A DNA stretch of 64,000 bases from Eublepharis macularius. Its lineage: Eukaryota; Chordata; Lepidosauria; Squamata; Eublepharidae. The notes below the pieces were generated by a model, which had not been told where the DNA came from, did no database searches, and saw only the letters and a program-made list of their open reading frames with translations. The stretch covers positions 92,721,001 through 92,785,000 of the forward strand of contig NC_072800.1 in the NCBI RefSeq assembly GCF_028583425.1, read 5' to 3'. Made by a program: the position numbers and the translations under genes. Positions 26,526-53,613 of the stretch are shown here, piece after piece (positions within the stretch are counted from its first letter, which is position 1; every line of letters begins with the position of its first letter).

Positions 26526-26633
26526 TCAGCCTTTGAGGCCATTGGGCACACTGGAGCCGAGGATGACGGAGCCCGTGTTCCACATCATCTTTTTCTTCTT
26601 TTTCCCTTTCCCAGACCGCTGCATTCTCAGGCC
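26526..26633 (-). CDS. pepD exon 2 (poly-Lys cationic peptide)
   Basis: The acceptor ttccacctcag precedes a phase-0 frame of 35 codons ending TGA (26526-26528). It holds the R-x-x-R-S processing motif and a G-K-G-K5 run. Confidence 0.55.
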   Translation of the reverse strand, partial: GLRMQRSGKGKKKKKMMWNTGSVILGSSVPNGLKG

Positions 26634-29600
26634 CTGAGGTGGAAATAAATGGAAGAGATGTCATAATTGAGGATATTTCTTAATGCAAATGAAAATGGAA
26701 AACGAAGTGGTAAAAGAATGTATGATTAAATGGTCACAAAACTTAGGTTATAACATTGACTTAGCAGAATGGAGTAAATTGTGGAGAGTGGATATTAAAA
26801 TAACTAAATCAGTCACTTTTAAAGAGAACCCGTACAAGATATTTTATAGATGGTATTTAACACCAGATAGACTAGCCAAAACGTATAAGAACGTGTCTGA
26901 TAGTTGTTGGAAATGTGAAAAGCATACAGGGACATTTTACCACATGTGGTGGACCTGTCAAACTATACACAATTTTGGATAATGGTACATACGTTGGTCC
27001 AGACAGTCTTACAGGTGTCAATACCTTTTAAACCTGAGTTGTTTCTGCTTAATTCTATTCCGGATGAACTTAGCAAAGATCAGAAATATTTTATAATACA
27101 TGTAGTTACGGCAGCTAGAATTCAACTAGCTTATTTTTAGAAGCATCAAACAATTCCTACCCAAGAAGAACTAGTGGGGAAGATTATGGAGAATAAAGAA
27201 ATGGACAAATTGACCTCAATACTGGTCGAATCCACATTACTCATTCTAAGTCGCATGTTCCCCGCATTCCCCACGCAATCCCGAGTGCCGGTCACATTAC
27301 CTCATTAAACAGACGCATTTCATTCGCATTTCTCCCGAATATGTGGTCACAGGTTTTCAACGGGAGTTTCACGGTGGCTGTGAACGGGCCAATGTGCAAT
27401 TTATGCGGTTTTTTTAAAAACCACCCCCCTTCCTGTCTCTCCGGCCGTTCCGAGAATTCCTATTGGCTGATTCAACTTGCAAGTGCTCCGTAGTCTGCAA
27501 AAGACTGTTTTTGACTTCGTAGCATTGGATTTATTGATTATGCTGTTTCTGAATCAAATCTGGTAGTTTGAAAAATCATTTTGGGGTGAAGCCATCCTCA
27601 GAACGGACTTGCAAAACTTCCTTTTTAACTGTTTTTTATTTTTTTTATTTTATAGTACTGTAATATCGAAATTATGAAATATTGAAATAATGACACTCCA
27701 AGGAAGTGAAACGTCAGTAAAATTCAGGCACTGAACTGTCCTGCATAGGAAATGCCCACGAAAGCTTCCCACATGCTTCCAAATTTCCAAAAAAGAAACG
27801 GGAGAGAGCCATCAGTGCTGTCAGTGGGGGAAAGAGAGGCATCATTATCTTCAATGGTGTTTCTTTATAAGGCAAGATCGAAATAACGGAAAAGTGCGCT
27901 CAAAAAAATAAAAAATAAATGGTCGGGAAAAAAAGGTCCCGCCCAAAAAAGCGGTTTTCGAGCGGCCGTGTGACTGGAGGGACATGCGAGAAAGACGGAT
28001 TGGAAGCAGGAATGTGAACGAAGAGGAAAAAATCACGGATTGGAGGCAAACGGAAGATATCCGATAAACATGCGGGTAATGGGTGGATGTGGATTCGACC
28101 ACTGAAAGGGCAAATGGAAGAGGATTTAGCTGGGCCTTGGACTTTATGACTGGCTAAGAAATAAGCATAAAGACATGAATATGTTAATGATATAAAAGCT
28201 TTGTTATAATCTTTTTAAATCATCACAGATTACCGATACGTAATATCAAATGATATGAGGAGTAAGGTTGCAAGCAGATTAAGTAGCGTTTCTGCTGAAC
28301 TCCCTCTTTACCCCCCTTCTTTCCTACCCGTCCCTGTTAGGATCCTCTTTAAACCTAATAAAATATATATGAAAAAAAATTAGAATATTTCTTATTCAAG
28401 CACTCCGCTCAGAGAAAGTTCACCTTACTTGAGTTAGTGCATGTTTTTTCTGTTTTGCACCAAGATTGTGTGTAGTCAGCAGTGTAATGACAGTGCCAAG
28501 CAATCACTCATGTGGACCATGTCTGTAAAATTTAGCATCCTCTAAATCTTGGATGTTCATGAAAAGCCAAGTTTCTAGTCCTTCATGCTATGAAAAGGGG
28601 CCGCATTCTTTTAAGTATTGATAACACCCTCATGAGGCATGTCAGTAATCTCATCGCCACATTGTGGGAGTCAGGATTGAGAGGGCGCAGCTCGCTTAAG
28701 ACAGCCAAGCAAGTTCATAGCCAAACTGAGATTCGAACTCAGGTCTTCCCAGATTGCAGCGGTCTTTTAGCCGTGATGCTACACCTCTGTCCTAATTCTG
28801 CATGGCCACAACTGAATCCTTTCCTGCTGTGATAATACTAATAGAAATGAAATGTTGTTATTGTATGTTGCATAAGTAAGAGCCCCGTGGCGCAGAGTGG
28901 TAGGCTGCAGTACTGCAGTCCAAGAGTTCGATCCTGGCAGACGCTGGGTTCAGGTAGCTGGGTCAAGGTTGACTCAGCCTTCCATCCTTCCGAGGTCGGT
29001 AAAATGAGTACCCAGTTTCCTGGGGGTAAAGTGTAGATGACTGGGGAAGGCAATGGCAAACCACCCCATAACAAAAGTCTGCCAAGAAAACGTGATGCGA
29101 CGTCCCCCTATGGGTCACGACTCGGTGCTTGCACAGGGGACTACCTTTACCTTTTATGTTGCATAAGCAAAAAAGAGCTCCTCACCCCTTGGAATTTACA
29201 GTTAAGAAATCTAAACATTGGCAGGGAGAAAGAGGGAGAAGCAAGGACAACAGAATATGTCCATGGTGGTTAGAGTATCAGGCTAGGATCTGAGAGGCCT
29301 GAGTTTGAATCCCCACTCTAGCTTGCTGGAAACCTGCCTTACAGGTTTGTTGTGGGGATAAAACAGAGGCAGAGAAAATCACGTATGGTGTTCTGAGCTT
29401 CTTGAAGGAAGGCTAGAATAAAGAATGGGCATACAGGTGTGCAAAAGCAGTGGCAGGTAGACTGAAATATTTAGAGGGGTGAAGACTAAGAGAGCACAAT
29501 GGCTAAGGAAATATTCCAGATGCAGGTTTGGATCCTAGTCCAAGGTTCCTGGTTCAAATCTCACCTCTGCCACAAGCTTACTTGGTGACCTTTAGCAAGC

Positions 29601-30421
29601 TGTTCTCAGCCTCATCCCCCATCTACCATATTTATTTATTTATTTATTTATTTTGACTTATGCCCCACCCTCCCCATGAACAGGCACAGGGTGGCTTATA
29701 ACAGAAAATGGACAATTAAAACATCATAAAAACATAAACTCAGTTTGACAGCTAAAATTCAGATGATGGCATTGATCTACCTTGCAGGGGTGTTGTAAGC
29801 ATGAAATACCTGCACACGCTATAAGGCAAACATTTAAACCAAACATTTTGTCAGTTTTTAGTCTGGATTTGGAGAAAGAGAGGGGAAGGTCCAGGGACAG
29901 GACTCCAGGTGTATGTTTGAGACTTATTTATTTTTTATGCTGCATTTCCAGAATCCTGGATGGTACCATTACAGAAGTCGTGTGCGGAAAGTGATAGATT
30001 GAGAAATGAGGGCAGGAAGACTGGGTGGCACGCTGAAAGATCAAAGTCCGGGGCAGGTGGTCAATTCAGCATTGCACCCACTGTCTTTGGCAGGCTGGCA
30101 GCTCACCGTTCCATGCATCTGCACGGGAGCCTACGTGCCCATACCCTCCTGCCAAAAATGGAGGGTATGGGTCTCAAGTAAGGAACAACCGTGCAAGAAT
30201 TTAAGTCAGACTTTGTGGTCCACTGTGGGAGGCAGGAGAAAGAACGAAGCACCTTGACTTACCCCAGAGTGTGGCTGGCCAGTATCCCCTGGCACCATCT
30301 CTCCATCCTGTCCTCTCGCCACCTCTGGGTCTCCTTTTGCCAGCCACGCCGGCACGCTGGGCTTTGCAACTACGGCCACAGCCAGGACCCCCATACACAG
30401 GAGACAAAGCAAGTGCCGCAT
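26526..30421 (-). CDS. pepD: secreted cationic prepropeptide, two exons
   Basis: Exon 1 (30421-30263, 53 codons) starts with MRHLLCLLCMGVLAVAVVA, a good signal peptide with a likely cut after AVVA. A net-acidic propiece rich in Gly/Asp/Glu/Pro follows, up to a strong donor (GGG/gtaagt). The intron is 3.63 kb. Exon 2 (26633-26526, 35 codons plus stop) follows a cctcag acceptor in the same phase 0. It begins GLRMQRSGKGKKKKKMMW, with no acidic residue and about +9 charge. R-M-Q-R/S is a minimal furin-type site that would release a peptide of about 29 residues without cysteine. The architecture and the G-x-R-x-x-R-S start match pepA and pepC. The intron hosts an L1 fragment, an 877-bp TIR element and a Sauria SINE. 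I know no named family; an antimicrobial-type role is inferred. No poly(A) signal is visible just downstream. Confidence 0.6.
26680..28385 (+). mobile_element. L1 ORF2 3' fragment, split by a DNA element
   Basis: Encodes KENPYKIFYRWYLTPDRLAK and CWKCEKHTGTFYHMWWTC, the C-terminal part of squamate L1 ORF2. Continues after 28101 to an A-rich end. Lies in the pepD intron. Confidence 0.75.
27224..28100. mobile_element. 877-bp TIR DNA transposon inside the L1, 3-bp TSD
   Basis: Terminal inverted repeat GGTCGAATCCACAT with a TSD ACT at 27221-27223 and 28101-28103. No transposase frame, so it is non-autonomous. A 3-bp TSD suggests PIF/Harbinger, but the ends are not diagnostic. Confidence 0.6.
28877..29154 (+). 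repeat. Sauria SINE with exact 13-bp TSD
   Basis: Head agagccccgtggcgcagagt, body gtgtagatgactggggaagg, BovB-like tail tacctttacctttt. The duplication tatgttgcataag lies at 28864-28876 and 29155-29167. Confidence 0.85.
29259..29420 (+). repeat. tRNA-SINE remnant
   Basis: ggtggttagagtatcaggct and gagtttgaatccccactct are tRNA-like A and B boxes. Lies in the pepD intron. Confidence 0.5.
30263..30421 (-). CDS. pepD exon 1 (signal peptide and propiece)
   Basis: ATG at 30421-30419. Hydrophobic core LLCLLCMGVLAVAVVA, then a Gly/Pro/Asp/Glu propiece. The donor is gtaagt, phase 0. Confidence 0.62.
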
Positions 30422-31758: not shown

Positions 31759-32215
31759 AGATCCAGAGGAGTTAGCCGTATTAGTTTGTAGTAGCAAAAT
31801 AGTAAAGAGTCCAGTAGCACCTTTAAGATTGACCAAATTTATTGTAGCATAAAGAGAGCCCCGTGGCGCAGTGTGGTAAGCGGCAGTACTGCAGCCCAAG
31901 CTCTGCTCATGACCCAAGTTGGATCCTGGTAGAAGCTGGGTTCAAATAGCCAGCTCAAGGTTGACTCAGCCTTCCATCCTTCTGAGGTCCGTAAAATGAG
32001 TCCCCAGTTTCCTGGGGGTAAAGTGTAGATGACTGGGGAAGGCAATGGCAAACCGCCCCGTAACGAAAAGTCTGCCAAGAAAACGTTGTGATGCAATGTC
32101 CCCCCATGGGTCAACAATGACTCGGTGCTTGCACAGGGGACTACCTTGACCTTTTTTTAAATTGTAGCATAAGCTTTCAAGAGCCACAGCTCTCTTCATC
32201 AAATGCATCATGCAT
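31759..32215 (-). repeat. Dispersed hammerhead-like repeat split by a Sauria SINE
   Basis: The tail part is at 31759-31852 and the core part at 32161-32215. The 12-bp attgtagcataa is duplicated at the breakpoints (31841-31852, 32161-32172). Confidence 0.6.
31853..32160 (+). repeat. Sauria SINE inserted in the dispersed hammerhead-like repeat
   Basis: Full-length copy flanked by a 12-bp duplication of the host repeat. Confidence 0.8.
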
Positions 32216-32664
32216 CTGACGAAGAGAGCTGAGGCTCTTGAAAGCTTATGTATTTTACTGTAATGATATCTGTATGCATGTTTTGTTATGAAAGGTTTGT
32301 GTTGTGAAGGTCTATGGCCATATACAATAATTTCTCTCTCTACCCCTTCAGCCTCAGCCGTCTTCTGCTAAGTCAAGACATGGTGTATCTGGCTGAGCAC
32401 CTCATAGGAGGTATCTCCAGGGGTGCTCTCTGGTGCCATTGCAGGGTGGTGTGGGAATTCCTTTTCTTGCAACGTCTGGGAGCACTTCCAGAAGACAGAG
32501 GACCCCTGCTATGCACGGAGCCACTACTGTAGGGCACAGGTCAGTTAATCATCTCTCCACGACCAGCCTGAGGAACCCCATGAAGAAGCTTAATCATAAA
32601 CCCACAGGTTATGGAATGGTTGTTAATTTATATGTTAAGTCTTATGTAGTTATAGGTCTCTAGA

Positions 32665-32960: not shown

Positions 32961-33825
32961 TAGGTCTCTAGATATTAAATTTGCATTATGTATTGCACTC
33001 TACACATGCTCTTTTTTAAAATGTTTTTTATAATGGTTGTTATAATGTGTTTTCTTATTTTTGGAGTGCTTGATTAATTGCCTTTCTCACGTTGTTTTAC
33101 TGACAGATCCTCCTGAAGAATCTGAGGCAAAATGTGTTGATGTTATTCAATAAAAGAATTCTCTCTTTGCACCATTTGCTGTTTTGTCTTTGTTTTGATT
33201 TGGGGCGCCGTATCCCTTCATTTCCATTGATGTCTGGTAAATACACCAGAGAAGGCTGGACGGCGGTGAACTCTGCCTGTATCCCATGCTGGCTTCCCCA
33301 TGTTTGTAACGTTGGTTTTTCTAGGTTTTCCGGTCTCCAGATGGGGCCTGAAGATCACCCAGAATTGCAGCTGATCCCTAGATTACAGAGATCAGCTCCC
33401 TGGCAGGAAATCGCTGCTGTGCAGGGTGGACTCTAAGGCATCCCATCTCTGTTGGAAGTCCCGCCCCTCCCCAAACTCCACTTTCCCTAGCTCCACCCCC
33501 AAATCTCCAGCAATTTCTCAACCCAGAGTTGGCAACCCCGTTCTCCCAGTCCTAAGCGTAGTTCCCTGGACTGCCCCCATGTAACCATTGTGGACTAGCA
33601 CCCCACACGACACAGCTAGACCGCCAAGTTTGGCAAAAGCTTTACTAAGACAAACAGCAAAATGTGTATGAAAAGGGGGAGAGACGTCCCTGATAGAAAG
33701 GCCCCTCTTTCACTCCCTTCGACCCAAACCGGAGGCACCGGCTTCGCTGCATTTTCATGCTGAGCTGGGCCCAACACCCAAACACCAAAGCGTGCCTCCA
33801 AATCCAATCCGTGCATCCGAAACAT

Positions 33826-33975
33826 CTAGGCGCGCTTGATAGAGACGGTTCTCTTTACAGGCTTGGCGAGGTGAGTTAGGCAGCCAGGCCGGTGTACCAC
33901 TTTCTTTTTTCTATTTTCCCATCTAATCCAGAAACAGACCGGTCTTCTCTTGGCAGAACGCGGCACCCTGACTCC
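33826..33975 (-). CDS. pepA exon 2 (cationic peptide, 2 Cys)
   Basis: The acceptor ctctcttgcag is followed by a phase-0 frame of 49 codons ending TAG (33826-33828). It shares C14, W19, N21, K23-K24 and R29-P-G-C32 with pepB exon 2. Confidence 0.62.
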   Translation of the reverse strand, partial: GVRVPRSAKRRPVCFWIRWENRKKKVVHRPGCLTHLAKPVKRTVSIKRA

Positions 33976-34011
33976 CTGCAAGAGAGAAGAACACAGGAGA
34001 CCGTGAGGAGG

Positions 34012-34229
34012 TAGGGTTGCCAGCTCCAGGTTGCAAGATTCCTGGAGATTTGGGGGTGGAGACTGGGTAGGGCGGGGTTTAGGGAGGGGAGGGACCTCAG
34101 CAGAGCATAATGCCATAGAGTCCACCCTCCAAAGCAGCCATTTTCTCCAGGGGAACTGATCTCTGTCACCTGGAGATGAATTGTAATTCCGGGAGATCTC
34201 CAGCTACTACCTGGAGGCTGGCAATCCTA
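34012..34229. mobile_element. hAT-like MITE (TAGGGTTGCCA) in pepA intron
   Basis: TIR tagggttgccag against ctggcaatccta. TSD tgaggagg/tgaggaag. It starts 37 bp from the pepA exon 2 acceptor. Confidence 0.7.
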
Positions 34230-36028: not shown

Positions 36029-36171
36029 CCGCTCCTCCCCGTTGGCTCCATCCTGTGGTCTTCCTCCTCCTTCCACCATGACAGAACCTCCCGGACTGGG
36101 TGGCTCCTCCAGGGCACGAGCCCCTCTCAGCACAAACCCAGCAGCAGCAGCCAAAGCCAGGAGCTCTGCAT
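36029..36171 (-). pseudogene. pepA exon 1, frameshifted
   Basis: 143 bp against 144 bp in pepB. A one-codon gain and a one-codon loss cancel, which leaves a net single-base deletion inside the Leu-rich signal peptide. The donor is intact. Confidence 0.6.
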
Positions 36172-36479
36172 GGTCTCCCGTTGTTGTAGGGCCCTCTGGC
36201 TCTGGATAGGGGAGGTTTCAGCCACCCACTGGTGAGAATGAGCAGTCAGGGAGAGGTGGTGGGCGGTAAATGAGTTTCTCCTCAAAAAGGACGTTCCCAG
36301 AAGGAGAAGGAATAGGGAACAGGAAACCACTCGTCTGCCGTTGACACCTCGGTGTTTCCACATGGCATAAAAATATTTGGTTCACTGTTGGTAAGTTGAT
36401 GGGGACAGAGAGGAAAGAGCAGCCGTGTGGGCTGCACAGAGTTGCATATCTCCAGTCCAACAAACAGCCCCAAACTGAA
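36172..36479 (-). promoter_or_regulatory. pepA upstream block homologous to pepB upstream block
   Basis: Aligns by eye with 41240-41530 at roughly 80 percent, including tttccacatggca and gaggaaagagcagc-gtgtgggctgcacag. Conserved over more than 250 bp, so promoter and 5' UTR were duplicated with the gene. Confidence 0.5.
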
Positions 36480-39961: not shown

Positions 39962-40111
39962 TCATTCCTGCCACTTCTTGACACCAAAAGTTGATGCAGG
40001 TTTCAGGAATGTCTTGCAGCCTGGTCGAGGCTGTATAATCTTTTTACCATTAACCCATTTCACCACCGCGCAGACATATCTTGCAGGCTTGCCACTCCCT
40101 GCTCTCATGGC
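39962..40111 (-). CDS. pepB exon 2 (cationic peptide, 2 Cys)
   Basis: The acceptor acttctcttacag is followed by 49 codons and TGA at 39962-39964. Cys at exon positions 14 and 32 have the same spacing as in pepA. Confidence 0.63.
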   Translation of the reverse strand, partial: AMRAGSGKPARYVCAVVKWVNGKKIIQPRPGCKTFLKPASTFGVKKWQE

Positions 40112-41239
40112 CTGTAAGAGAAGTGCAGGGAGACCGTGAGAAAGAAGGGGGGCAGATGTTGCAGCTGGAAAACTCTGAACTAACTACACACCAGTCCTGC
40201 ATTCCACCCCCACCCCCCATCGTGACTCATAGGAGTTCAGGGAACAAAATCCGAGTCCAGCAGCACCTTAAAGACCAACAACATTTTCCAGGGTATTCAT
40301 CTAAGCTTACTTCATCAGATGCAAATGAGAATGAAGATCCACCATGCCTTATACTCGGGTCAGAAGGGACGGGGTTGCCAAGAACAGCCAGTTGGAGTCA
40401 GGATGCAGACGTGCAATGCCAAAACATAACCAGGTTGATTACAGCAAGGAGATGTGCATAGAAGTGGGAACTCCCCAAATTTTGCACTTGAGTTCAGAGA
40501 GTGAACAAGGATCCTTCTCCCACCTTTTCCTCTAGAGAAGGCTTGGGAGCGATTAACCTAAAGTTACTCGGTGAGCATAACGGCTGGGGGTGAGTGGGAT
40601 TCGAACCTGGGTCTCCCCTCTCTTAGTCAGACCCACGCTAACCAGTACGTCACACACTCTCTCTCCAGGGATGCAATATGACTTACACCATTTGCTCTAC
40701 TCATTCCTGCTCACCCCTGGACACACATTCACGGAGCCAAATGAGAAGTGGGCAACTAGTCTGTGTCTGAAATGAAGATTCTCCTTTCCCTTCCCAGCCT
40801 ACGCCCATCACCTTAGGCAGAATCCTAGGTCGCTAGAAACATCAGATAGGGTTGCCAGCTCCAAGTTGAGAAATTCCTGGAGATCTGGGGCAGCGGGGGG
40901 GGGGGGGTGAAACCTGGAGAAAGTGGGGTTTGGGGGGGGAGGACCTTGACATGGCATAATTCCATACAGCCCACCCCACGAAGTAGCCATTTTCCCCAGG
41001 TGAACTGATCTCTGTGGCCTGGAGACCAGCTGTAATTCCGGGAGGTCTCCAGCCACGACCTGGAGGATGGCGACCCACATCTGCTCCACACTCACCCGCT
41101 CCTCCAGATTGACTCCGTCCTGCGGTCTACCTCCTCCTTCTGCCCCAGAACTTCCTGGGCTGGATGGCTGCTCTACAGCCGAAGCCTCGCTTAGCACCAA
41201 ACCCAGCAGCCACAGCAGCCAAAGCCACCAGCTCCGCAT
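39962..41239 (-). CDS. pepB: secreted cationic prepropeptide, 97 residues
   Basis: Exon 1 (41239-41096, 48 codons) has a Trp/Leu-rich signal peptide starting MRSWWLWLLWLLGLVLSEAS, with a likely cut after ASA. A propiece with E/D over K/R (net about -3) ends LEER at a gtgagtg donor. The intron is 984 bp. Exon 2 (40111-39962, 49 codons plus TGA) follows a cttacag acceptor in phase 0. It begins AMRAGSGKPARYVCAVVKW and has about +10 charge. Cysteines at exon positions 14 and 32 could form one disulfide. Unlike its paralogues it lacks the P1 arginine of the R-x-x-R site (R-A-G-S). AATAAA lies at 39752-39757, about 210 bp after the stop. Nearest relative in the window is pepA (exons, promoter block and 3' flank). 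It looked faintly like a chemokine last exon, but there is no CC or CXC exon. Family unknown. Confidence 0.65.
40847..41077. mobile_element. hAT-like MITE (TAGGGTTGCCA) in pepB intron
   Basis: Same family as 34012-34229; right end ggatggcgaccca. It ends 18 bp from the pepB exon 1 donor. Confidence 0.65.
41096..41239 (-). CDS. pepB exon 1 (signal peptide and propiece)
   Basis: ATG at 41239-41237. The frame is open to a CGG/gtgagtg donor, phase 0. An hAT-like MITE starts 18 bp inside the intron. Confidence 0.65.
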
Positions 41240-41355: not shown

Positions 41356-41366
41356 GGGAAGTTCCC
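41356..41366 (-). promoter_or_regulatory. kappaB-like site upstream of pepB
   Basis: GGGAAGTTCCC fits the NF-kappaB consensus GGGRNNYYCC on both strands. It lies about 120 bp upstream of the pepB ATG, inside a block conserved with pepA. The pepA counterpart (about 36289-36298) is degraded. The promoter position and function are inference. Confidence 0.3.
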
Positions 41367-42330: not shown

Positions 42331-42488
42331 GAACTTGTAGTGCTGAAGGGAAATGCCACTAGAGTCACACTGGAGAACCAGTGTAGTGTAGTGTAGTGGT
42401 TCGAGTGATGGACTAAGACCTGGGAGGTTCGAATCTCTGTTGTTAGCAGTCAGATCCTTCCTCACTCTAAGAGGAAAGTTTATAGATG
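42331..42488 (+). repeat. Left 158-bp direct repeat flanking the YR element
   Basis: Runs from gaacttgtag to tttatagatg. It contains a tRNA-like B-box (gttcgaatctc) and matches 48325-48482 except for gtggttcg against gtgtttcg. Confidence 0.8.
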
Positions 42489-42677
42489 CCGCCGCTTGGA
42501 GAGAACGTGAGCTTCGTTGCTCTGTGCTTTGTGCTTTTTCTGACTTCTGATTGATCTTTGGCTTTTTGACTTTGGACTTCGGACCTCGACTATTCTTCGG
42601 CTTACTGATTTGGACTTTGGCTGGACTCGGTAAATACGACCCGGATTGTTTGACCTCTCTCTAGCGTGCCCCTGAAG

Positions 42678-44801
42678 ATGGCCTCAAAGGCTCTCTTTAA
42701 GCATTGCCTCCAATGCCACACGAAAATGGCCAAGACCGATGGCCATGAACTGTGCCTCTTTTGTTTGGGGGAGACCCACAATGTGTCGGCCTGTAGGATT
42801 TGTCAGGGCTTCACCAACAAGGCCCGGCAGGAGCGCAAGGCCCGACTGAACTCCTCCCTGTGGCAGAAGGTCATGTCCGGAGGCACTCCGTTACCTTCCC
42901 CCAAGGCCGGCCCTAGCCCCTCTGCCGAACGGCAATCAAGAGCTGGCTCAGTGGCCTCCGCGAGGTCGGGGTCGAAACCGCATCCCCCGAGTGCCTCGGC
43001 GTCGAGAGCGGCCTCTCCAGCGCAGGGACCGGTGCGGCCGCCCCGTAGCGCGTCATCCACCAGGTCGGATCCGAGACCGACATCGGAACCGAGGATCCTG
43101 GTACCGAGTCCCCGATCGGAACCGACGACCGGGTCGATTCCGATAAAGTCTAAGAGGTCGAAGCCGAGGTCCCCTTCGAAGGCGAGGAGCGCGTCGGTTC
43201 CGAGGTCTTCTTCGGAACCGGCGAAGAAGAAGAAGAAGACTAAACATCATCGGTCGCCGCATCCCGCTCCTCAGGAGGAGGTCATCGTGCTTCCTCACAC
43301 GCCTTCCCCTCATCTGGGTTCCCCCGAACCGGAGGACATCTCCGTGCCGGTGCCGGATCCGATGGCATTCGAGACGGTGCCCGCAGAGTTCTCGTCGGGG
43401 CCGGATCCGAGCCCGCACCGTCGGAGCCGACCATCACCTGCCCTTCGGTCGCCGAGGCTGGAACCGAGCCCGTCTCCTCGTCGGAGCAGTCCATCTCCTG
43501 TCCGTCCGTCTCCACCTCGATCTGCCCGATCCACTGCATCCCGGCATCGTCAAGCCTCCTACCTCCCCTCGCCATACCGTTGCCAGTGGGAAGGGGCACC
43601 TGCCGGCTTCTCCATGTCGGAACCGAGGCCTTCGACATCAAGGCCAGCGTGGGCTCCCCCTCCAGTCCAGGTTGAGGAATCCCAGCTCGGTTCCAATGAG
43701 GGGGAAGTGGAGAGCCTTGGCGACTACCAATCGGAGTCCTGGTCCGAACCGTCGCCGGCTGAGGAGCTAGTGCCGTCTGCGGGCTCACCGTTCGAAGACC
43801 TCCGCATCTACGCCGACCAGATGGCAAGGATGGCTCAGGCTCTCGAGATGGATATCTCTTCTGCAGTCCCCCAGACCAAGGACAAGCTCCTCAAGCGGCT
43901 CTATGGGGATAATCCGGCGTCCGTTGGCTTCCCCATGCTCGAGGGTATTGAGGAGATCGTGGAGAAGGTGTGGAAGGTGCCCTGTGATCAGCCTCCAACA
44001 TCCAAGCACATCGAGCAGCTTTATAAAATCAAGCAGGGCACCTGGCCGGCGTTGGTGAAGCACCCTCCACCTTCCTCCTTGGTCACAGAGGAATTCAACC
44101 CCCGGCGATCGGGTCACTCCTCGGTGCCTGCCGATAAAGAGGGCAAGAAGCTTGATGCCATGGGCAGGCGCCAGTACATTGTAGCTTCGCTGGGTCTGAG
44201 GACTGCCAACTACCAGACCATCATGGCAGGGTACCAACTGTACCTCTGGGAGAAGTTGGCGTCCTATACCAGAGACCTCCCACCTGAGCAGAAGGCTGTG
44301 GTGTCCCTGCTGCAAACAGAGGCTGTCCGGCTGTCTAAACAGCAAATGAATGCTGGGAGCCACGCTGCTGACACTGCTGCTAGAGGAATGGCTTCGGTGG
44401 TGGTCCTCAGGCGCCACTCCTGGTTGCGGTCTACGGCCCTGTCCCAAGAGGTGCGTTCCAGGGTGGAGAGCATGCCCTTTGAAGGGGACTCGCTGTTCTC
44501 CAAGTCCACCGACGAGACCCTGAAGAAAAAGAAGGAGGACCGGCAGATGGCGCGGTCCTTGGGTCTGGCTCCTGCGGACAAGCCCTCCTCCAGGCCACGG
44601 TACGCTCCCCGGTCCGGCCCTTACCACTATCAGGGCAGATACCAACAGCAGCGGCCAGGCTATCAACAGTATCCTGCCTACCAGCAGCGGCCTTACCCTC
44701 CCGCACAACAGCAAAGGAGGCGTCGGCCCTTCAAGCCTCGTCCGGCACAACAACAACCGGCCCAGCAGAGAGATCAGCAGGGCGCCGGGAGGCAGTACTG
44801 A
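42678..44801 (+). CDS. YR retrotransposon ORF1, gag-like protein
   Basis: About 707 residues from the ATG at 42678 to TGA at 44799-44801; the frame is open slightly upstream without an earlier ATG. The N terminus has three C-x2-C pairs (residues 10/13, 26/29, 39/42), a likely zinc-binding module. A long Ser/Pro/Arg-rich disordered stretch with a Lys run and basic patches follows. A helical, capsid-like region (about 370-620) comes next, then an Arg/Gln/Pro/Tyr-rich tail with QQRPGYQQYP-like repeats suited to RNA binding. Its role is presumably packaging element RNA. The stop is the only stop between this frame and the RT frame. Confidence 0.8.
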   Translation: MASKALFKHCLQCHTKMAKTDGHELCLFCLGETHNVSACRICQGFTNKARQERKARLNSSLWQKVMSGGTPLPSPKAGPSPSAERQSRAGSVASARSGSKPHPPSASASRAASPAQGPVRPPRSASSTRSDPRPTSEPRILVPSPRSEPTTGSIPIKSKRSKPRSPSKARSASVPRSSSEPAKKKKKTKHHRSPHPAPQEEVIVLPHTPSPHLGSPEPEDISVPVPDPMAFETVPAEFSSGPDPSPHRRSRPSPALRSPRLEPSPSPRRSSPSPVRPSPPRSARSTASRHRQASYLPSPYRCQWEGAPAGFSMSEPRPSTSRPAWAPPPVQVEESQLGSNEGEVESLGDYQSESWSEPSPAEELVPSAGSPFEDLRIYADQMARMAQALEMDISSAVPQTKDKLLKRLYGDNPASVGFPMLEGIEEIVEKVWKVPCDQPPTSKHIEQLYKIKQGTWPALVKHPPPSSLVTEEFNPRRSGHSSVPADKEGKKLDAMGRRQYIVASLGLRTANYQTIMAGYQLYLWEKLASYTRDLPPEQKAVVSLLQTEAVRLSKQQMNAGSHAADTAARGMASVVVLRRHSWLRSTALSQEVRSRVESMPFEGDSLFSKSTDETLKKKKEDRQMARSLGLAPADKPSSRPRYAPRSGPYHYQGRYQQQRPGYQQYPAYQQRPYPPAQQQRRRRPFKPRPAQQQPAQQRDQQGAGRQY

Positions 44802-44975
44802 CGGGTCACGCCAGCCGTATCCCCGAACTTTTCGGACAGACTGAGTCCACTCCTCTCTGAGTGGGAGTCAATAACATCTGACTCATGGGTCTTAACTATT
44901 GTTGAACTGGGATACGGGCTGGAGTTCGTTGAGCTGCCTAGATGCAGTTCACCCCTGACAGCTGTCAATAACACT

Positions 44976-46694
44976 ATGGCCGAGCTGGATGCGGAGATCG
45001 TGTCGCTCTTGGCCAAGGGTGCTGTGGAAGAATTGCCCTATGAGGACTCTGTAAAGGGATTCTTCTCTAGATTCTTCTTGGTCCCCAAGAAGGATGGGGG
45101 CTTACGCCCCATTTTAGATCTGAGGGGCCTTAATGCCTTCCTCAAGGTGACCAAATTCAAAATGGTTACATTGGCGGCTGTGATCGCCTTGCTGAAACAA
45201 GGGGATTGGTTTGCGGTTCTTGACTTAAAGGACGCATACTTTCACGTGGGAATACGGGAGCAGCACAGGAAATACCTGAGCTTCGTTTACCAGCAAAGGG
45301 TTTTCCGGTATAAGGTGCTCCCCTTTGGCCTGTCCACTGCCCCACGAGTGTTCACGAAATGTGTGGCCCCTGTGGTTTCCTTCCTACGGGAAGAAGGCTG
45401 TACCATCTTTCCGTACCTCGATGACTGGCTCATCGTGGCTGAATCGGAGTCTAGGCTGGTGCAGGACATTGACTTGGTACTTAGCACTTGCCAACGCCTG
45501 GGGCTCCTGGTAAACTTTGAGAAATCCAAACTGGTGCCCAACTGCAAGGTGTCCTACATTGGTGCACTTTTAGACTCTGTGGAGGGTAGGGCTCTGCTCC
45601 CTTTGGAGAGGGCTCGGTCCCTAAGGGGTCTAGTGTCCATGTTTAAAAGGAACCGATTCCAGTCTGTGCGCACTATCCAGTGCTTACTAGGGCATATGGC
45701 AGCGGCCACCTCTGTGGTGCCTTTTGCTAGACTGCGTATGCGCCCGCTCCAGAACTGGTTTGTGCGGAGGTACGATGCTCTACTGCACCCTCCGTCCCTC
45801 AAATTCTCTGTCCCTAGGGTAATCCTCTCCTCTTTGGACTGGTGGCTGTCTGATGACAACTTGTTTAGAGGGACCCCCTTTGGGTATCAGCACCATGACG
45901 TCACGGTTACCACTGATGCCTCTCTGTTGGGATGGGGGGCTTACTGTGGTGATGTGTCTGTGCAGGATGTCTGGTCTGAGAGGGAAAAGACCCTCCATAT
46001 CAATGTGCTTGAACTAAGGGCCATTCGTTTCGCACTTGTGTCTCTTACAGCACTGCTGAGAAATCGTCAGGTCTTGGTGCAGACGGACAACACGACTGCC
46101 ATGTACTACGTGAATCAGCAGGGGGGCACAGTGTCCATGGCCCTGTGCCGGGAAGCCACGCTCACTTGGCAGTGGGCTATCAGGAACGGCGTGTCGCTCC
46201 GTGCTATTCACGTGGCTGGGTCAGACAATGCCCGGGCAGATGCCCTCAGCAGGGTCCCTTTGCTGGACCACGAGTGGGAACTGAACGTAGAGTGCGTTCG
46301 GCCGATCTTCCAGATGTGGGGTCATCCAGTGATAGACGTGTTCGCCACTGCGGCGACCACCAAGGCCCACACGTTCTGTTCCAGGGCAGGGAGCGACCCC
46401 CTCTCTATTGGGGATGCCTTCCAGTTTACGTGGACGCAGGGCTTGCACTACATGTTTCCTCCATTCCCCTTGATTCCCAGGGTCCTGTGCAAGATAGAGG
46501 AGGACGGGACGGACTGCATCCTGGTGGCCCCCTTCTGGCCCCGGCAAGTTTGGTTCCCGAAGCTCCTGCGGATGTCCCAACGGACATATGTGAGTCTTCC
46601 CCCTCGGCAAGACCTTCTCCTAAACGGGAGCCTAGTCCACCACGATCCCAGGAAGCTGCACCTAACGGCTTGGCGGATCGTTCCTCCCCTGTAG
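44976..46694 (+). CDS. YR retrotransposon ORF2, reverse transcriptase-RNase H with MT-like tail
   Basis: From the first ATG there are 572 residues, but the frame is open and protein-like from 44802, straight after the ORF1 stop. RT motifs: VPKKDGGLRPILDLRGLN, LDLKDAYFHV (catalytic Asp about residue 83), LPFGLSTAPRVF and YLDD (147-150). RNase H: TTDASLLGWGAY (Asp314), Glu346 in NVLELRAI, Asp371 in VQTDN, and Asp422 in ARADALSR. The C-terminal part (VIDVFAT, FPPFPLIPRVL, LVAPFWPRQVWFP) resembles the methyltransferase-like domain of DIRS elements. TAG at 46692-46694. All catalytic acids are present, so the enzyme may be active. Confidence 0.88.
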   Translation: MAELDAEIVSLLAKGAVEELPYEDSVKGFFSRFFLVPKKDGGLRPILDLRGLNAFLKVTKFKMVTLAAVIALLKQGDWFAVLDLKDAYFHVGIREQHRKYLSFVYQQRVFRYKVLPFGLSTAPRVFTKCVAPVVSFLREEGCTIFPYLDDWLIVAESESRLVQDIDLVLSTCQRLGLLVNFEKSKLVPNCKVSYIGALLDSVEGRALLPLERARSLRGLVSMFKRNRFQSVRTIQCLLGHMAAATSVVPFARLRMRPLQNWFVRRYDALLHPPSLKFSVPRVILSSLDWWLSDDNLFRGTPFGYQHHDVTVTTDASLLGWGAYCGDVSVQDVWSEREKTLHINVLELRAIRFALVSLTALLRNRQVLVQTDNTTAMYYVNQQGGTVSMALCREATLTWQWAIRNGVSLRAIHVAGSDNARADALSRVPLLDHEWELNVECVRPIFQMWGHPVIDVFATAATTKAHTFCSRAGSDPLSIGDAFQFTWTQGLHYMFPPFPLIPRVLCKIEEDGTDCILVAPFWPRQVWFPKLLRMSQRTYVSLPPRQDLLLNGSLVHHDPRKLHLTAWRIVPPL

Positions 46695-47710
46695 GCTTTA
46701 CTGACGAGGTACAGAGGGTCCTCCTGAATGCCCGTCAGCCTTCCACTAGGCGCGCTTATGCGGCCAAGTGGCGCAGGTTTGAGCTTTGGGCACTTGCTAA
46801 AGGAGTGGTGCCTGACAGCAGTCCCTTGGGGGTTGTGTTCGAGTATTTGTGCCACTTGCGTGGCCTGGGCTTGAAGGTTTCCTCCCTCAAGGTCCACCTG
46901 GCAGCGATATCAGCTGCTCACGCCCGAGTTGAGGGTGCTACGGTGTTTTCTCACCCACAATCCCGCCAGTTCCTTAAGGGCATGTACAATCTTTACCCAC
47001 CTGTGTCGGCGCCAGTGCCTCAGTGGTCGCTGTCCTTGGTGCTCTCACGTCTCATGTTGCCTCCATTTGAACCTATGGCTACATGCCCCTTGGATATGCT
47101 ATCCTACAAGGTAGCATTCTTGGTGGCCGTCACATCGGCCAGAAGGGTCAGTGAGCTGTCTGCACTGCGGTCTGACCCTCCCTTTCTTGTGTTTCATCCC
47201 AACAAGGTGGTCCTGCGTCCCTGCCTCAGGTTCCTGCCCAAGGTGGTGTCCGCCTTCCACCTCTCGCAGGATATCTCACTGCCTGCATTCTTTCCTCAAC
47301 CTTCCTCTAAGGGCGAAAAGGCCCTTCATTCCCTAGACTTGAAGAGGGCCCTAGCCTATTACCTGGATAGGACGAAGGAATTCCGCTCCAGTCCTCACCT
47401 GTTTGTATGTTTTGGGGCCAAGGACAAGGGTAACAGGGCTTCCTCACAGACCCTGTCTAGGTGGATTGTGACGGCCGTTAGCAAGGCCTATTCCCTGGCA
47501 GGGGTGGCTTGCCCGCTTCATGTCAGAGCCCACTCCACGCGGTCCCAAGCATCCTCTTCGGCACTCCTCAGGGGGGTGCCCCTGGTCAACATTTGTAAAG
47601 CAGCCACATGGTCCTCTGCAGACACCTTTGTCAGGCATTACGCCATTGATGTCAATGCGGAGCAGGATGTATCTGTGGCTAGGGCTGTCCTACACTCCCT
47701 TTTTTCCTGA
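46145..47710 (+). CDS. YR retrotransposon ORF3, tyrosine recombinase
   Basis: Open for 521 codons in the -1 frame relative to ORF2. The first codon listed is GTG and there is no early ATG, so it is probably made by frameshifting, splicing or reinitiation. Recombinase homology starts about 46695, just after ORF2 ends. Core-binding part: ARQPSTRRAYAAKWRRFELW. Catalytic residues seen: Arg at 47144-47146 (RVSEL), His 47531-47533 and Arg 47540-47542 (HSTR), Trp 47609-47611, and the nucleophile Tyr 47639-47641 (HYAID). It would integrate circular DNA without a DDE integrase. TGA at 47708-47710. Confidence 0.86.
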   Translation: MPGSHAHLAVGYQERRVAPCYSRGWVRQCPGRCPQQGPFAGPRVGTERRVRSADLPDVGSSSDRRVRHCGDHQGPHVLFQGRERPPLYWGCLPVYVDAGLALHVSSIPLDSQGPVQDRGGRDGLHPGGPLLAPASLVPEAPADVPTDICESSPSARPSPKREPSPPRSQEAAPNGLADRSSPVGFTDEVQRVLLNARQPSTRRAYAAKWRRFELWALAKGVVPDSSPLGVVFEYLCHLRGLGLKVSSLKVHLAAISAAHARVEGATVFSHPQSRQFLKGMYNLYPPVSAPVPQWSLSLVLSRLMLPPFEPMATCPLDMLSYKVAFLVAVTSARRVSELSALRSDPPFLVFHPNKVVLRPCLRFLPKVVSAFHLSQDISLPAFFPQPSSKGEKALHSLDLKRALAYYLDRTKEFRSSPHLFVCFGAKDKGNRASSQTLSRWIVTAVSKAYSLAGVACPLHVRAHSTRSQASSSALLRGVPLVNICKAATWSSADTFVRHYAIDVNAEQDVSVARAVLHSLFS

Positions 47711-47882
47711 GGGAGTTTTGGGATGACTTTCTTGGCGTGCCTGCTAGGTACCCTTGAGTGGAAGAGTGTATGTATGTACCTTGGGGTGTATATATGTAAA
47801 TATTGAGTATTTATGTGTCCTTACACAGTTTTTTACATGGATGTGTATATGCATATCTATTTGTTGTTGTTCTTGTTTGTTC

Positions 47883-47888
47883 AATAAA
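47883..47888 (+). terminator. Retrotransposon poly(A) signal
   Basis: A plus-strand AATAAA followed by a T/G-rich stretch, 173 bp after the recombinase stop. Confidence 0.45.
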
Positions 47889-47940
47889 ATTGTGTTGGAC
47901 TTCACCCCCGCCTTCCTTATTGTGTGAAGCTTGGTACACT

Positions 47941-48327
47941 CCCATGTGTGGAGGCACAGAAGAACGAAGATGAAAACAGGGTTAACATACCTGTAACTTA
48001 TGTTCATCGAGTTCTTCTGTGCTGACACACAACCCTCCCTCCTACCCCGCTGTGAACTCCAATGCACAATGATGTGATGACTGTAACGGAAATTGGTGTT
48101 TTTGAGGTGTTATAGCTGAAGTGTGTTGGTCAAGCGGCGGCAAGGGAGAACTGAGGGAAGGGGCCGTTGGTCGCTGGAGGATCACGTGACCGTTTGGGCG
48201 GGAAAACGGTCGCTGAGGCGCGCGACAAACGGCCCCTTCGGAGCCATGGAAGCTCTAGAAAATTCTCCGGCGGCTGGCCTGCGCCTGCGCAGTCCCATGT
48301 GTGGAGGCACAGAAGAATGAAGATGAA
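47941..48327 (+). repeat. Retrotransposon right-end module: hairpin plus 34-bp direct repeat
   Basis: A 34-bp sequence starting cccatgtgtggaggcacaga occurs at 47941-47974 and again at the element's right edge (48294-48327, one change). The first copy also pairs with its inverted form at 48003-48030, giving a stem of about 20 pairs around a small ACAGG/CCTGT hairpin. At 48131-48140 a 10-bp segment is the exact reverse complement of the element's first 10 bases (42489-42498). The layout resembles the internal complementary region of DIRS elements. Confidence 0.55.
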
Positions 48328-48482
48328 CTTGTAGTGCTGAAGGGAAATGCCACTAGAGTCACACTGGAGAACCAGTGTAGTGTAGTGTAGTGTTTCGAGT
48401 GATGGACTAAGACCTGGGAGGTTCGAATCTCTGTTGTTAGCAGTCAGATCCTTCCTCACTCTAAGAGGAAAGTTTATAGATG
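48325..48482 (+). repeat. Right 158-bp direct repeat flanking the YR element
   Basis: Second copy of the 158-bp repeat. It abuts the 34-bp right-end repeat directly and is followed by unrelated sequence. Confidence 0.8.
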
Positions 48483-49386: not shown

Positions 49387-49534
49387 GTGATTCCGCACAC
49401 GTTGGATAATGCACTTCCAATCCTCTTTATAGATCATTTGGAATGGATTTTTTTGTGTGCGGAACAAAAAAATCCACCTCAAATGATTGATAAAGTGCAT
49501 TGAAAGAGCATTATCCAACGTGTGCGGAATCAGC
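49387..49534. mobile_element. 148-bp palindromic MITE
   Basis: tgattccgcacacgttggat and atccaacgtgtgcggaatca are exact inverses. The interior is also partly palindromic. Confidence 0.7.
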
Positions 49535-49957: not shown

Positions 49958-50214
49958 CAGGGCTTTTTTTCAGCTGGAACGCGGGGGAACGGAGTTCCGG
50001 CACCTCTTGAAAATGGTCACATGGCTGGTGGCCCCGCCCCCTGATCTCCAGACAGAGGGGAGTTGAGATTGCCCTCCGCGCTTGGTGGCGCGGAGGGCAA
50101 TCTCAACTCCCCTCTGTCTGGAGATCAGGGGGCGGGGCCACCAGCCATGTGACCATTTTCTCCGCGGGCAGCCCACTGAGTTCCACCACCTCTTTTCCCA
50201 GAAAAAAAGCCCTG
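49958..50214. mobile_element. hAT MITE, CAGGGCTTTTTTTC family, exact 8-bp TSD
   Basis: Perfect 14-bp TIR and TSD aatgttcg at 49950-49957 and 50215-50222. Same family as 24094-24405. Confidence 0.85.
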
Positions 50215-50430: not shown

Positions 50431-50436
50431 TTTATT
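50431..50436 (-). terminator. pepC poly(A) signal AATAAA
   Basis: A minus-strand AATAAA about 230 bp past the pepC stop, a normal distance compared with pepB. Confidence 0.45.
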
Positions 50437-50662: not shown

Positions 50663-50794
50663 TCATGCTTGCGTCACAACAACTCGGTTTGCTCTTCGCG
50701 TATTGCTTATGGTGGTGTACACTCCGGGTCTCCGGACTTTATTTTCCTTTATGAACTTCTTCCACCAGGCATACGATCTTTTTTCCCTCGTTCC
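50663..50794 (-). CDS. pepC exon 2 (cationic peptide with furin-type site)
   Basis: The acceptor tgtgcatttcag is followed by 43 codons and TGA at 50663-50665. It carries REKR/S at exon residues 3-7. Confidence 0.66.
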   Translation of the reverse strand, partial: GTREKRSYAWWKKFIKENKVRRPGVYTTISNTRRANRVVVTQA

Positions 50795-53613
50795 CTGAAA
50801 TGCACACACAAGAGATAAGGGATCAGAGAGGAAAACAATAGTATGGACCCTAAGTAGGCTTCATTCAGATTCTCCCAGAAAACACACAGCTAGAATCCAG
50901 AGGATCTGCTTAGCTTTCTGCTAATTCTTCCTTCAAAGTGGAAATGAGTTACTGGAAGCAAAGGAGGAGGAAGAAAGGCCAACAGAGAAATCTTTCCTCC
51001 AGAGGGCATGTGGCAAAAAGAGAGCTGTTGAATCCAACCTGTTATTTCTAGAACTGATCAAACTGCAAGATTCAGCCCACCAGATCCAAGCCAATATTTC
51101 TAACACTAGACTTAAAGCAGACATCCAGTCATATTTATTTATTTTTTGCTTTAGCCCTGTCAACTGTTCATGGGAAGAATGATGTGTCTTCTGGTTGAGA
51201 CTAGAAGCCAATCTGATAGCCTGGTTCTTCTTGTGGAATTTTTACAAGCTGTATAACTTTTGAGGTGCCTTTCGCCAGCTGCCCTACCCAGGCAGGAAAG
51301 TACATCCCTGTAGTACATGCCGTGGTAACATCTAGATTACTGCAATGCGCTCTACATGGGGCTGCCCATGAAGACTGTCCAGAAGCTACAGTTGGTTCAG
51401 ACTGCTGCAGTCAGAATGCTGTCTGGAGTGGGTCTCAGGAACCGTATCACTTCAGTCTTGTCCCATCTCCACTGGCTTTCAATTTGCTTCCAAACTCTGG
51501 TATTCAAGATGCCGATATTGACTTTTAAAGCCCTATATAACTTGGGCCATACCTGAAGGACCACCATCTCCCATATGGACATTCCTATCCACTCCAGTCG
51601 TCTTTGGAGGTCCTCCCTTTATATGCCTCTGCCATTTGAGACTAAAAGGGTGCCAACCTGAGGAAGGTCCTTCTTGTGGTGCCAAAACTTGGTAATTTTC
51701 TCCCCAAGGAGGTCCATCTGTTCCCCTCTATTGCAGTCTTCCAACAATGGGTGAAGAGTTTATGGTTTCATTTGCACCAGCCAGCCCTAGCTGCTACGCA
51801 AGGCTTAACTTCAGTTCAGAAGCATTCAGCCATGTCACTTTGCCACAGGACATGAGAAAGAGCTGAACTAGGAGCACCTCGTGGCCAGCAACCAGAGACC
51901 ATCTGACCCAGGTGGATTTCCCTCACCCAAGACCTAGTGTCAACAGCGGCTTCCAGCCAGCTGTCTAAGCTCACTGATCAGACAGCGCAGAGAAACCTGC
52001 TGTCCCTGTTTGTATCCAAAATCTATACTGCCTGCGAAGGTTTCACTAAGTTAAGGGAGGTTTCATTAAGTTCTTGTGGCTGTTGGTGATCTCTGTGAAT
52101 CTCACTTTTCTTCAAGGTCATCTAAGCTCGTGGCCATCATGTGGCCGAGAGTTCCGTAGGAGAGTTATGCAAAGTAATACTTCTCTAGCTGCTTATGATT
52201 CTCATTCCAGTATCACACAAGGTCTATTTGAACTCACAACCTACTACTTGTAGCCAGTATCACCCCTCCTCAACAGGACATTCCCAGACTGCACACCTAA
52301 ATGAGAAGTATTCCTCAAAGCAAGACTTCTTTGGGCTTTCAGCATTTCCTCGTAAGACAATCAGACACAGAGATCATACAAAATAGTAAAGAGTCCAATA
52401 GCACCTTCGAGCCTAACCAACTATATTGTAGCATAAGCTTTCAAGAACCACAGCTCTCTTCATCAGATGCATGTGACAAAGAGAGCTGTGGTTCTCGGCT
52501 ATATTAAATGGGATGGTGAACTAGGTAAACCACTGGTCAGTTGGGAAGCAAGATACCACCTGAGACAGCAATGTGGCTACAGCACTGAAATCAACGGTAG
52601 AAAGACCTGGGTTCAAATCCCTCCTACTCAGCTATGAAGGTCAATGGGTAGTCTTTGGCCCATCACTAATCTTGCAGCTGAACCCAGGCTTACCTTACAG
52701 GGATGCAAGGATAAAATTGGGAAATATTTTTTTGCTGTCTAGAACTGCTTGGAGGAAGAGCAAAATTCAAATATGAAAAATGAACTGGGGTGGGTGTGAG
52801 GCTCAGCATATGGTCACGTATTGACTTTTTTCTGGAATATTTCAGGCTGGGGAGGGGGGGCAATGCATATTTAAATGTTTAAAAGATCCCCTTCCCGATA
52901 CAGAGCCCCCACAGCAGGGGAAAAGCTAGCAGGAATCCTCCCATACTTGAAGGCCAAGTTGTGCAGCCAGTTTCAATGTACCACATTCCAGGTACAGCCA
53001 AGCCTAGTACAGACCAGAAACAGCTATCCAGTGGAGAGGTTGCTCAGCATATCAAGTTGGCCCATGAGTCAGCTGCCAGGAAAATGCACTCTGCACATGC
53101 TCAGTGGAACTTGCCTTTTCCTCCTCCTTTGCCAAGGACTAAACCCCTGGAGTGAAACCGAATGTTCAGTGCTCTCCACAACCAAATGCTAGCCCTTCAA
53201 ACCCATCTCAGTTTACTGACTTCACTCATACCACCTCTCTTTCTTCCCAGCAGGGACTCAAAGTGACTTTCATCATTCGTCTCACCTCCATTTAATCCTC
53301 ACAACAACCCTGCGAGGTAGGTTGGGATGAGATGGTGTGACTGGCCCAAAGCTTCCATGGCAGAGCAGGGATTCGAACCTGGTCCTCCCACATCCTACTC
53401 TGACATTCTAAACCACCATGCCACACAATGCTCTCATTCTGTTGGAAAACACTTTGTACTCACTGCAGAATGCTCATCGTGGCTCTGCTCGGTTTGGGGT
53501 GCCCCCCCTAAAGCTTGGGCCACTTCTGGGGCCAACGTCGACTGGCCAACAGCCCCTGCCAGAGCAGCCACCACGAGCATGAAGCCCAACAGCAGCAGCT
53601 GCACTCGAGGCAT
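50663..53613 (-). CDS. pepC: secreted cationic prepropeptide, 93 residues, Cys-free mature part
   Basis: Exon 1 (53613-53464, 50 codons) starts MPRVQLLLLGFMLVVAALAG, a classic signal peptide with a likely cut near AVG/Q. A net-acidic propiece (E and D without K/R) ends DEHSA at a gtgagta donor, phase 0. The intron is 2.67 kb. Exon 2 (50794-50663, 43 codons plus TGA) follows a gtgcatttcag acceptor. It begins GTREKRSYAWWKKFIKENK and has about +10 charge. R-E-K-R/S is a consensus furin site, releasing a 37-residue, Trp/Lys/Arg-rich, cysteine-free peptide. RRPG aligns with the RPGC of pepA and pepB but has Val in place of Cys. AATAAA lies at 50431-50436. It is the best-preserved member by processing logic. 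An antimicrobial-like role is inferred; no named family recognised. Confidence 0.68.
51230..51830 (+). mobile_element. L2-like LINE RT tail remnant
   Basis: QKLQLVQTAAVRMLSGVGLR and HLHWLSICFQTLVFKM correspond to the C-terminal RT block of L2-type LINEs. Frames are broken. Lies in the pepC intron. Confidence 0.65.
52383..52475 (-). repeat. Dispersed repeat copy, partial
   Basis: Reads gagtccaatagcacct through gcataagctttcaagaacca to catcagatgcat. Confidence 0.5.
53464..53613 (-). CDS. pepC exon 1 (signal peptide and propiece)
   Basis: ATG at 53613-53611. The frame is open and ends GCA/gtgagtac in phase 0. The hydrophobic core LLLLGFMLVVAALAGA is unambiguous. Confidence 0.68.

Follow-up and report, generated by a model that had tools for sequence, protein, structure and literature searches.

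Background

The closest described counterparts of the genes reported here are the sauropsid cathelicidins, a family defined, in the excerpts of PMC6716921 used here, by a last exon encoding a net-positive C-terminal peptide of 25-37 residues that follows a short basic linker. The same excerpts print exon 4 of Komodo cathelicidin 4.2 as opening with L-D-R-V-T-R ahead of a basic peptide and, together with those of PMC4571063, place cathelicidins on the flanks of KLHL18 in anole and birds. We analysed 64,000 nucleotides of the gecko Eublepharis macularius (assembly GCF_028583425.1, contig NC_072800.1, positions 92,721,001 to 92,785,000; this whole stretch is referred to as the window, and positions are counted from its first letter), which hold, next to CCDC12, a cluster of four small minus-strand gene models, pepA to pepD. 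These models resemble sauropsid cathelicidins such as VK-CATH4.1 and CMAP27 in their predicted signal peptide, propiece and basic C-terminal peptide on the last exon, in their tandem clustering, in an R-x-x-R just past the exon start (pepA, pepC, pepD and one Komodo exon 4) and in a weak similarity of the pepC mature part, but they lack the cathelin domain and the propiece cysteines, have two coding exons rather than four and another propiece, and encode peptides without amphipathicity beyond that of shuffled sequences. We favor, at about even confidence, the reading that they form an undescribed tandem family of genes for small secreted, furin-processed cationic peptides, most likely acting in host defence.

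Three other peptide systems, characterised here from general knowledge, share part of this design. Alpha-defensin genes also carry the signal and an acidic propiece on exon 1 and the basic mature peptide on exon 2, and also stand in tandem arrays; however, defensins, whether alpha or beta, require six cysteines in three disulphides, whereas exon 2 has two cysteines in pepA and pepB and none in pepC and pepD, and we rejected this assignment. Hepcidin and LEAP-2 are short cationic peptides released by a furin-type cut, as is predicted here, and were rejected as well: the eight- or four-cysteine core is absent from the exon 2 counts, the exon layout is different, and there is no Pfam match. Amphibian skin prepropeptides such as the dermaseptins, compared by description only, combine a conserved first half with a strongly diverged peptide half, as pepA and pepB do (78% vs 51% identity), but split the precursor otherwise among exons and are cut at K-R. 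A first-pass annotation of the window had been unable to match the cluster to defensins or cathelicidins, and the cysteine counts, together with a search in which no cathelin exon was found (below), bear this out.

Architecture of the cluster

The exons and the one flank considered here are as follows.

53464..53613, minus strand: pepC exon 1, 50 codons, predicted signal peptide and mildly acidic propiece, donor GTGAGT, phase 0
50663..50794, minus strand: pepC exon 2, 43 codons and stop, basic (+10), no cysteines, opening G-T-R-E-K-R-S
41096..41239, minus strand: pepB exon 1, 48 codons, predicted signal peptide and propiece, donor GTGAGT, phase 0
39962..40111, minus strand: pepB exon 2, 49 codons and stop, basic (+10), opening A-M-R-A-G-S-G
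36172..36471, minus strand: pepA 5' flank, candidate promoter or 5' untranslated region, with 77% identity to the pepB 5' flank at 41240-41560 (291 bases aligned)
36029..36171, minus strand: pepA exon 1, 143 nucleotides, homologue of pepB exon 1, broken in the assembly, donor GTGAGT
33826..33975, minus strand: pepA exon 2, 49 codons and stop, basic (+15), opening G-V-R-V-P-R-S
30263..30421, minus strand: pepD exon 1, 53 codons, predicted signal peptide and propiece, donor GTAAGT, phase 0
26526..26633, minus strand: pepD exon 2, 35 codons and stop, lysine-rich (+9), opening G-L-R-M-Q-R-S

All four exon pairs of the first-pass annotation were found, with consensus donors and CAG acceptors, in the minus-strand order pepC, pepB, pepA, pepD (26.5 to 53.6 kb, on the downstream side of CCDC12). 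Each first exon has an ATG and a hydrophobic leader (leaders were assessed by a hydrophobic-core rule) and ends at a GTRAGT donor, and each last exon is preceded by a pyrimidine-rich acceptor ending in CAG and continues for 35-49 basic codons to a stop; the individual values (35, 49, 49 and 43 codons; +9, +15, +10 and +10 for pepD, pepA, pepB and pepC) agree with the annotated range of +9 to +15. The predicted introns measure 984 (pepB), 2053 (pepA), 2669 (pepC) and 3629 (pepD) nucleotides. Two properties that had been ascribed to every gene, namely a phase-0 intron and an exon 1 for signal peptide plus acidic propiece, stand for pepB, pepC and pepD and fail for pepA, whose exon 1 length is not a multiple of three and whose frame meets an early stop; the charge of exon 1, leader counted, is also just mildly negative (-1 in pepD, -3 in pepB and pepC). 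Precursors of the intact genes would have ~90-97 residues. The propieces of pepB, pepC and pepD are free of cysteines, both cysteines of pepD exon 1 lying within the leader. A poly(A)-type signal follows the stop in pepB (AATAAA, 204 nucleotides), pepC (AATAAA, 226 nucleotides) and pepA (AGTAAA, 179 nucleotides), and pepD exon 2 is the least certain coding exon of the cluster. Overall, the reported four-gene observation is partly confirmed.

As assembled, the ATG frame of pepA exon 1 reaches a stop after 14 codons, and farther 3' the exon can be read in a different frame, one that lacks an ATG ahead of the propiece; exon 2 is intact over its 49 codons, with a good acceptor. Given the frameshift and early stop, pepA is either a pseudogene or affected by an assembly error.

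Excess over chance and the exon 2 opening motif

Both strands of the 64 kb were scanned with a strict rule for first exons (leader hydrophobicity, length, donor and non-positive propiece) and one for last exons (acceptor, length and a charge of at least +8), which were composed once the exons were known, and this flatters the numbers that follow. The minus strand gave three first and four last exons, all in the cluster, and the plus strand no first exon and two last exons, both within a retroelement open reading frame (ORF); the reversed sequence gave no first and three last exons and the complement none and one. In second-order shuffles (n = 400), the mean number was 0.115 for first exons, 1.17 for last exons and 0.01 for pairs; none of these shuffles reached two pairs or three first exons, while at least four last exons were seen in 10 of the 400; first-order shuffles (n = 60), with one pair at most, were in agreement. 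When the acceptor rule is loosened, 22 ORFs of last-exon type appear across the window (10 minus, 12 plus), including the cluster's four. Last exons alone are therefore weak proof, and the case rests on the first exons and on the alternation. A relaxed scan for additional family members yielded no extra first exon. Six more ORFs of last-exon type, two minus and four plus, did pass with a basic residue at both position 3 and position 6, and none of these had a first exon as partner.

Exon 2 opens with G-x-R-x-x-R-S in three of the four genes (pepA, pepC and pepD). Across the first eight columns of the four exon 2s, the identity score is 15 pairs, compared to a shuffled mean of 3.6, and none of 20,000 shuffles reached 15. 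R-x-x-R is the minimal furin motif. That it coincides with the exon edge in three genes is an argument for relatedness of the exon 2s. The annotation had described exon 2s that share little besides the start motif and, in pepA and pepB, spaced residues; both features were found, and the former looks like a processing site.

Relatedness and constraint within the cluster

pepA and pepB are clearly paralogues, judging from their sequences. Their identity over aligned bases is 77% upstream (224/291), 78% in exon 1 (109/140), 51% in exon 2 (73/144) and 51% in the 3' region (111/217), where the stretch about the poly(A) signal is visibly conserved; the divergence of exon 2 is far greater than that of exon 1 or of the sequence upstream. 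The exon 2 proteins are 45% identical over 38 columns (expectation value, E, 2e-5 against the window; z 10.9, 0 of 1000 shuffles) and have in common two cysteines that enclose 17 residues, a W-x-N-x-K-K stretch and an R-P-G-C ending.

The remaining ties are looser. In 24 DNA-level comparisons (500 shuffles each, p values uncorrected), the upstream and 3' regions of pepA and pepB were more alike than in all 500 shuffles, and pepD resembled the pair in exon 1 (p 0.008 with pepB, 0.02 with pepA) and in exon 2 (p 0.004 with pepA). For pepC, exon 1 (0.056 with both pepA and pepB) and exon 2 (0.40 with pepA, 0.22 with pepB, 0.63 with pepD) were not significant, and the only comparison to reach p 0.03 was that of the 200 bases upstream of pepC and pepD. 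At the protein level, the likeness of pepA exon 2 to those of pepC and pepD loses its significance once the opening motif is left out. The whole first exons of pepB, pepC and pepD are alike (p 0.010-0.028); since their propieces are no more alike than shuffled ones (p 0.10-0.44), a shared type of hydrophobic leader could explain this. Hence, of the four paralogues originally proposed, pepA and pepB are firm, pepD appears weakly tied to them with modest support, and the putative membership of pepC rests mainly on layout and the exon 2 opening motif.

Nonsynonymous (dN) and synonymous (dS) divergence between pepA and pepB was computed over 43 of the 48 codons of pepB exon 1 and 46 of the 49 of exon 2, gapped and frameshifted codons being dropped. 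The estimates are dN 0.184 and dS 0.521 in exon 1, and dN 0.685 and dS 1.611 in exon 2, with synonymous sites near saturation. The proportion of differing synonymous sites (pS) exceeds the nonsynonymous one (pN) in both exons (one-sided Fisher tests on rounded counts, p 0.019 and 0.022), which supports a coding function and is evidence against simple positive selection; that is, both genes look constrained rather than positively selected. The fast, immune-type divergence of exon 2 that the annotation had suggested, with a comparison of dN/dS between the exons as its check, did not hold up, and positive selection on exon 2 was rejected, dN being below dS. At synonymous sites, too, divergence is higher in exon 2 than in exon 1 (p 0.026), a pattern that fits either a greater age of exon 2 beside a homogenised 5' half of the gene or raised change over the whole peptide exon.

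Predicted processing

Under the model we favor, exon 1 would encode a signal peptide and a mildly acidic propiece and exon 2 a strongly basic peptide. The signal peptide would be removed during secretion, and a furin-type proprotein convertase is predicted to cut after R-x-x-R in pepA, pepC and pepD, because exon 2 there opens with R-x-x-R followed by S. The released peptides would have 43 residues and a charge of +13 (pepA), 37 residues and +8 (pepC), and 29 residues and +7 (pepD), whereas pepB would have to be cleaved at another site or be active uncut. The acidic propiece would mask the charge until cleavage, and the pepA and pepB peptides probably form one disulphide loop enclosing 17 residues. 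The combination of predicted signal peptide, propiece and R-x-x-R is complete in two of the four genes (pepC and pepD); pepA has the site and a broken exon 1, and pepB has no site there.

Comparison with known families

Pfam and NCBIfam gave no family at its cut-off for the pep genes; two pepC matches, DUF5437 (E 0.0073) and HTH_15 (E 0.06), lie far under the cut-off and were judged to be chance effects of the hydrophobic leader. Protein database searches with pepB, pepC and pepD returned no homologue, the reptile content of the database being unchecked, and comparison of the pepC mature part with solved structures gave just two matches, both at chance level (E 0.77 and 1.4). Among the literature matches listed, titles and abstract openings describe no such family. 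Rfam at gathering cut-offs and a transfer RNA search returned nothing.

The regions scanned with Pfam were 1-26400 (both strands) and 53700-64000 (minus strand), along with the introns of pepB, pepC and pepD and the three retroelement ORFs. Hidden cathelin exons were rejected, a three-frame Pfam search of these introns giving no match at E 0.01. Cathelicidins have at least four propiece cysteines and four exons, compared to none in the propieces of pepB, pepC and pepD and two coding exons, phase 0 and with consensus sites, in the pep models. A basic last-exon peptide of 25-37 residues is predicted for pepC (37, +8) and pepD (29, +7), while that of pepA is longer (43, +13) and pepB is without the linker. 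Three Komodo cathelicidin precursors searched with tblastn over the window gave nothing convincing (best E 0.17, at 4092-3979; pepC exon 1, E 5.6 and 8.1). As for the FASTK/TBRG4-KLHL18 locus of cathelicidins, CCDC12 lies on one side of the cluster, and on the other the six-frame scan of 1-26400 showed no domain at E 0.001, KLHL18 and FASTK having been sought by Pfam scans only.

Neighbourhood and repeats

Two further features frame the cluster.

56788..61859, minus strand: coding exons of CCDC12 (cwf18 family), the upstream neighbour, on the same strand as the pep genes
33322-33538, 34009-34229, 39500-39701, 40844-41071, 7301-7595, 8451-8569, 14595-14790, both strands: copies of a dispersed repeat of ~200 bp, from the self-comparison of the window

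The annotated position next to CCDC12 was confirmed by tblastn, which matched exons from 61859 to 56788 with residues 32-166 of a human sequence, and by a cwf18 domain in one of these exons (Pfam, E 7.8e-12). PTH1R, presumably the neighbour of CCDC12 in human, was tried as the other neighbour (as a fragment), as was MYL3, and both were rejected, the human sequences giving no tblastn match at E 1.

The exons do not appear to be parts of repeats: in a self-comparison of the window (E 1e-5) only exon 1 of pepA and of pepB matched anything, i.e., each other. Two copies of the dispersed repeat lie close to pep exons, one ~25 bases past the 3' end of pepB exon 1, the other ~34 bases ahead of the 5' end of pepA exon 2. 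Between pepB and pepC, on the plus strand, is an apparently young retroelement (42331-48482), which we take to be of the tyrosine-recombinase type, DIRS/Ngaro-like; it has three long ORFs, 158-bp direct repeats that are 99.4% identical, a reverse transcriptase (E 3e-25) and an integrase-type domain under the cut-off. Plus-strand reading frames at 26671-27300, presumably of LINE (long interspersed nuclear element) type, start beside the pepD exon 2 acceptor. The pepC 3' flank contains foldback palindromes at 50009-50160 (96% self-complementary) and 49388-49532 (85%) that resemble miniature inverted-repeat transposable elements, with smaller ones at 32168-32250 and 52444-52495. Tandem arrays were seen at 15593-16243 (225-base unit), 17618-17961 (89-base) and 10501-10687 (47-base).

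Discussion

The role that accounts for these genes most economically is host defence, because the predicted peptide set is tandem, small, basic, secreted and divergent; the peptides would bind and damage microbes or modulate immune cells. Several observations weigh against the interpretation of a furin-processed defence family. The defence role itself is read from charge, size, predicted secretion and clustering, and the gene models from DNA sequence, with expression predicted. pepB exon 2 opens without R-x-x-R, pepC exon 2 protein shows no significant likeness to pepB, pepD or, outside the opening, pepA (p 0.051), and pepD has no AATAAA, ATTAAA or AGTAAA within 700 nucleotides past its stop and includes a lysine run in exon 2. 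The dissimilar propieces, the looser-rule ORFs, the missing database homologue and a dN below dS, which differs from an arms-race signature, point in the same direction. Finally, no mature peptide exceeds its own shuffles in helical amphipathicity (fractions 0.21-0.46, compared to 0.018 and 0.026 for two reference cathelicidin peptides), so an amphipathic helix, the most common design among membrane-active peptides, was rejected and membrane lysis via a classical helix is not indicated; the peptides may instead bind anionic surfaces, act on intracellular targets or signal to immune cells. The immune-peptide interpretation of the first-pass annotation is, overall, partly supported.

It is highly improbable, in our view, that the models are unrelated ORFs that happen to be flanked by splice-like signals. 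The rules were fitted after the fact, the looser one lists many last-exon-like ORFs, four last exons do arise in some shuffles, and models read from DNA found no database homologue, all of which such coincidence would accommodate; however, no shuffle gave two pairs or three first exons, first exons were absent from the plus strand and from the reversed and complemented sequence, the exon 2 opening motif is in register, and pepA and pepB are paralogous and constrained. A decaying cluster, in which pepA and perhaps pepD are pseudogenes and only pepB and pepC are live, has in our estimate not quite an even chance, and since this is compatible with the other readings its probability does not compete with theirs. 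The pepA frameshift, the lack of a nearby poly(A) signal in pepD, the LINE-like sequence that adjoins pepD exon 2 from about 26671 and the young retroelement between pepB and pepC all suggest decay, whereas the 49 open codons and good acceptor of pepA exon 2 and a pN below pS between pepA and pepB speak for retained function, and a single-base difference could come from an assembly error.

Alternatively, the products may be signalling peptides, i.e., hormones, neuropeptides or pheromone-like ligands that are released by a furin-type cut and act on a receptor. We consider this the main rival, and an unlikely one. A signal peptide, propiece and R-x-x-R are also the standard hormone layout, and constraint instead of positive selection, the conserved spaced residues and two-cysteine loop of pepA and pepB, and amphipathicity no greater than in shuffles are all consistent with it; on the other hand, ligands of a single receptor would not usually carry charges as high as +15 or differ so much among paralogues, a tandem array with one broken copy suits defence or secretion better, and Pfam shows no likeness to a known hormone family. 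It is decidedly improbable that the cluster derives instead from cathelicidins, as an undescribed reptile family that lost its cystatin-like (cathelin) exons, with exon 2 descending from exon 4, and radiated in tandem beside CCDC12. CCDC12 and KLHL18 share one human chromosome band, and cathelicidins stand beside KLHL18 in anole and birds, as noted above. Among 16 comparisons of mature peptides with cathelicidin peptides, the pepC mature part scored 39 against VK-CATH4.1, a value reached by 7 full shuffles in 20,000 and by 0.3% and 0.45% of the class-keeping and block ones, respectively (reversed control 16), and its scores against VK-CATH4.2 and CMAP27 had p<0.025 in all three shuffle kinds. 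The R-x-x-R positions of pepA, pepC and pepD are also those of Komodo 4.2 exon 4 as printed in the excerpts of PMC6716921. These points are offset by the C. coturnix peptide (p 0.11-0.12 with pepC) and by a ranking of 1705 window ORFs of at least 25 residues, in which the pepC exon 2 ORF came second for VK-CATH4.1 (E 1.2), fourth for VK-CATH4.2 (E 3.6) and second for CMAP27 (E 5.1), fell outside the best four for four other queries, was placed 19th (E 16) by a squamate profile and was absent from the best 12 rows of an all-cathelicidin profile. In addition, pepB stands out against CMAP27 in the class shuffle only (p 0.013; others 0.053 and 0.063) and pepA against VK-CATH4.2 in the full shuffle only (p 0.023), nothing else stands out for pepB or pepD, and the propieces are unlike those of Komodo cathelicidins (p 0.30-0.93). 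The likeness of pepC to cathelicidins may thus be a resemblance in possible working, not membership.

If expressed, the pep genes would represent a new peptide family for vertebrate innate immunity (or endocrinology). Such genes are easily missed by gene finders, as they consist of two tiny exons and their peptide sequences differ strongly. The link between the last exon and cathelicidins, if true, would bear on whether the cathelin domain is dispensable.

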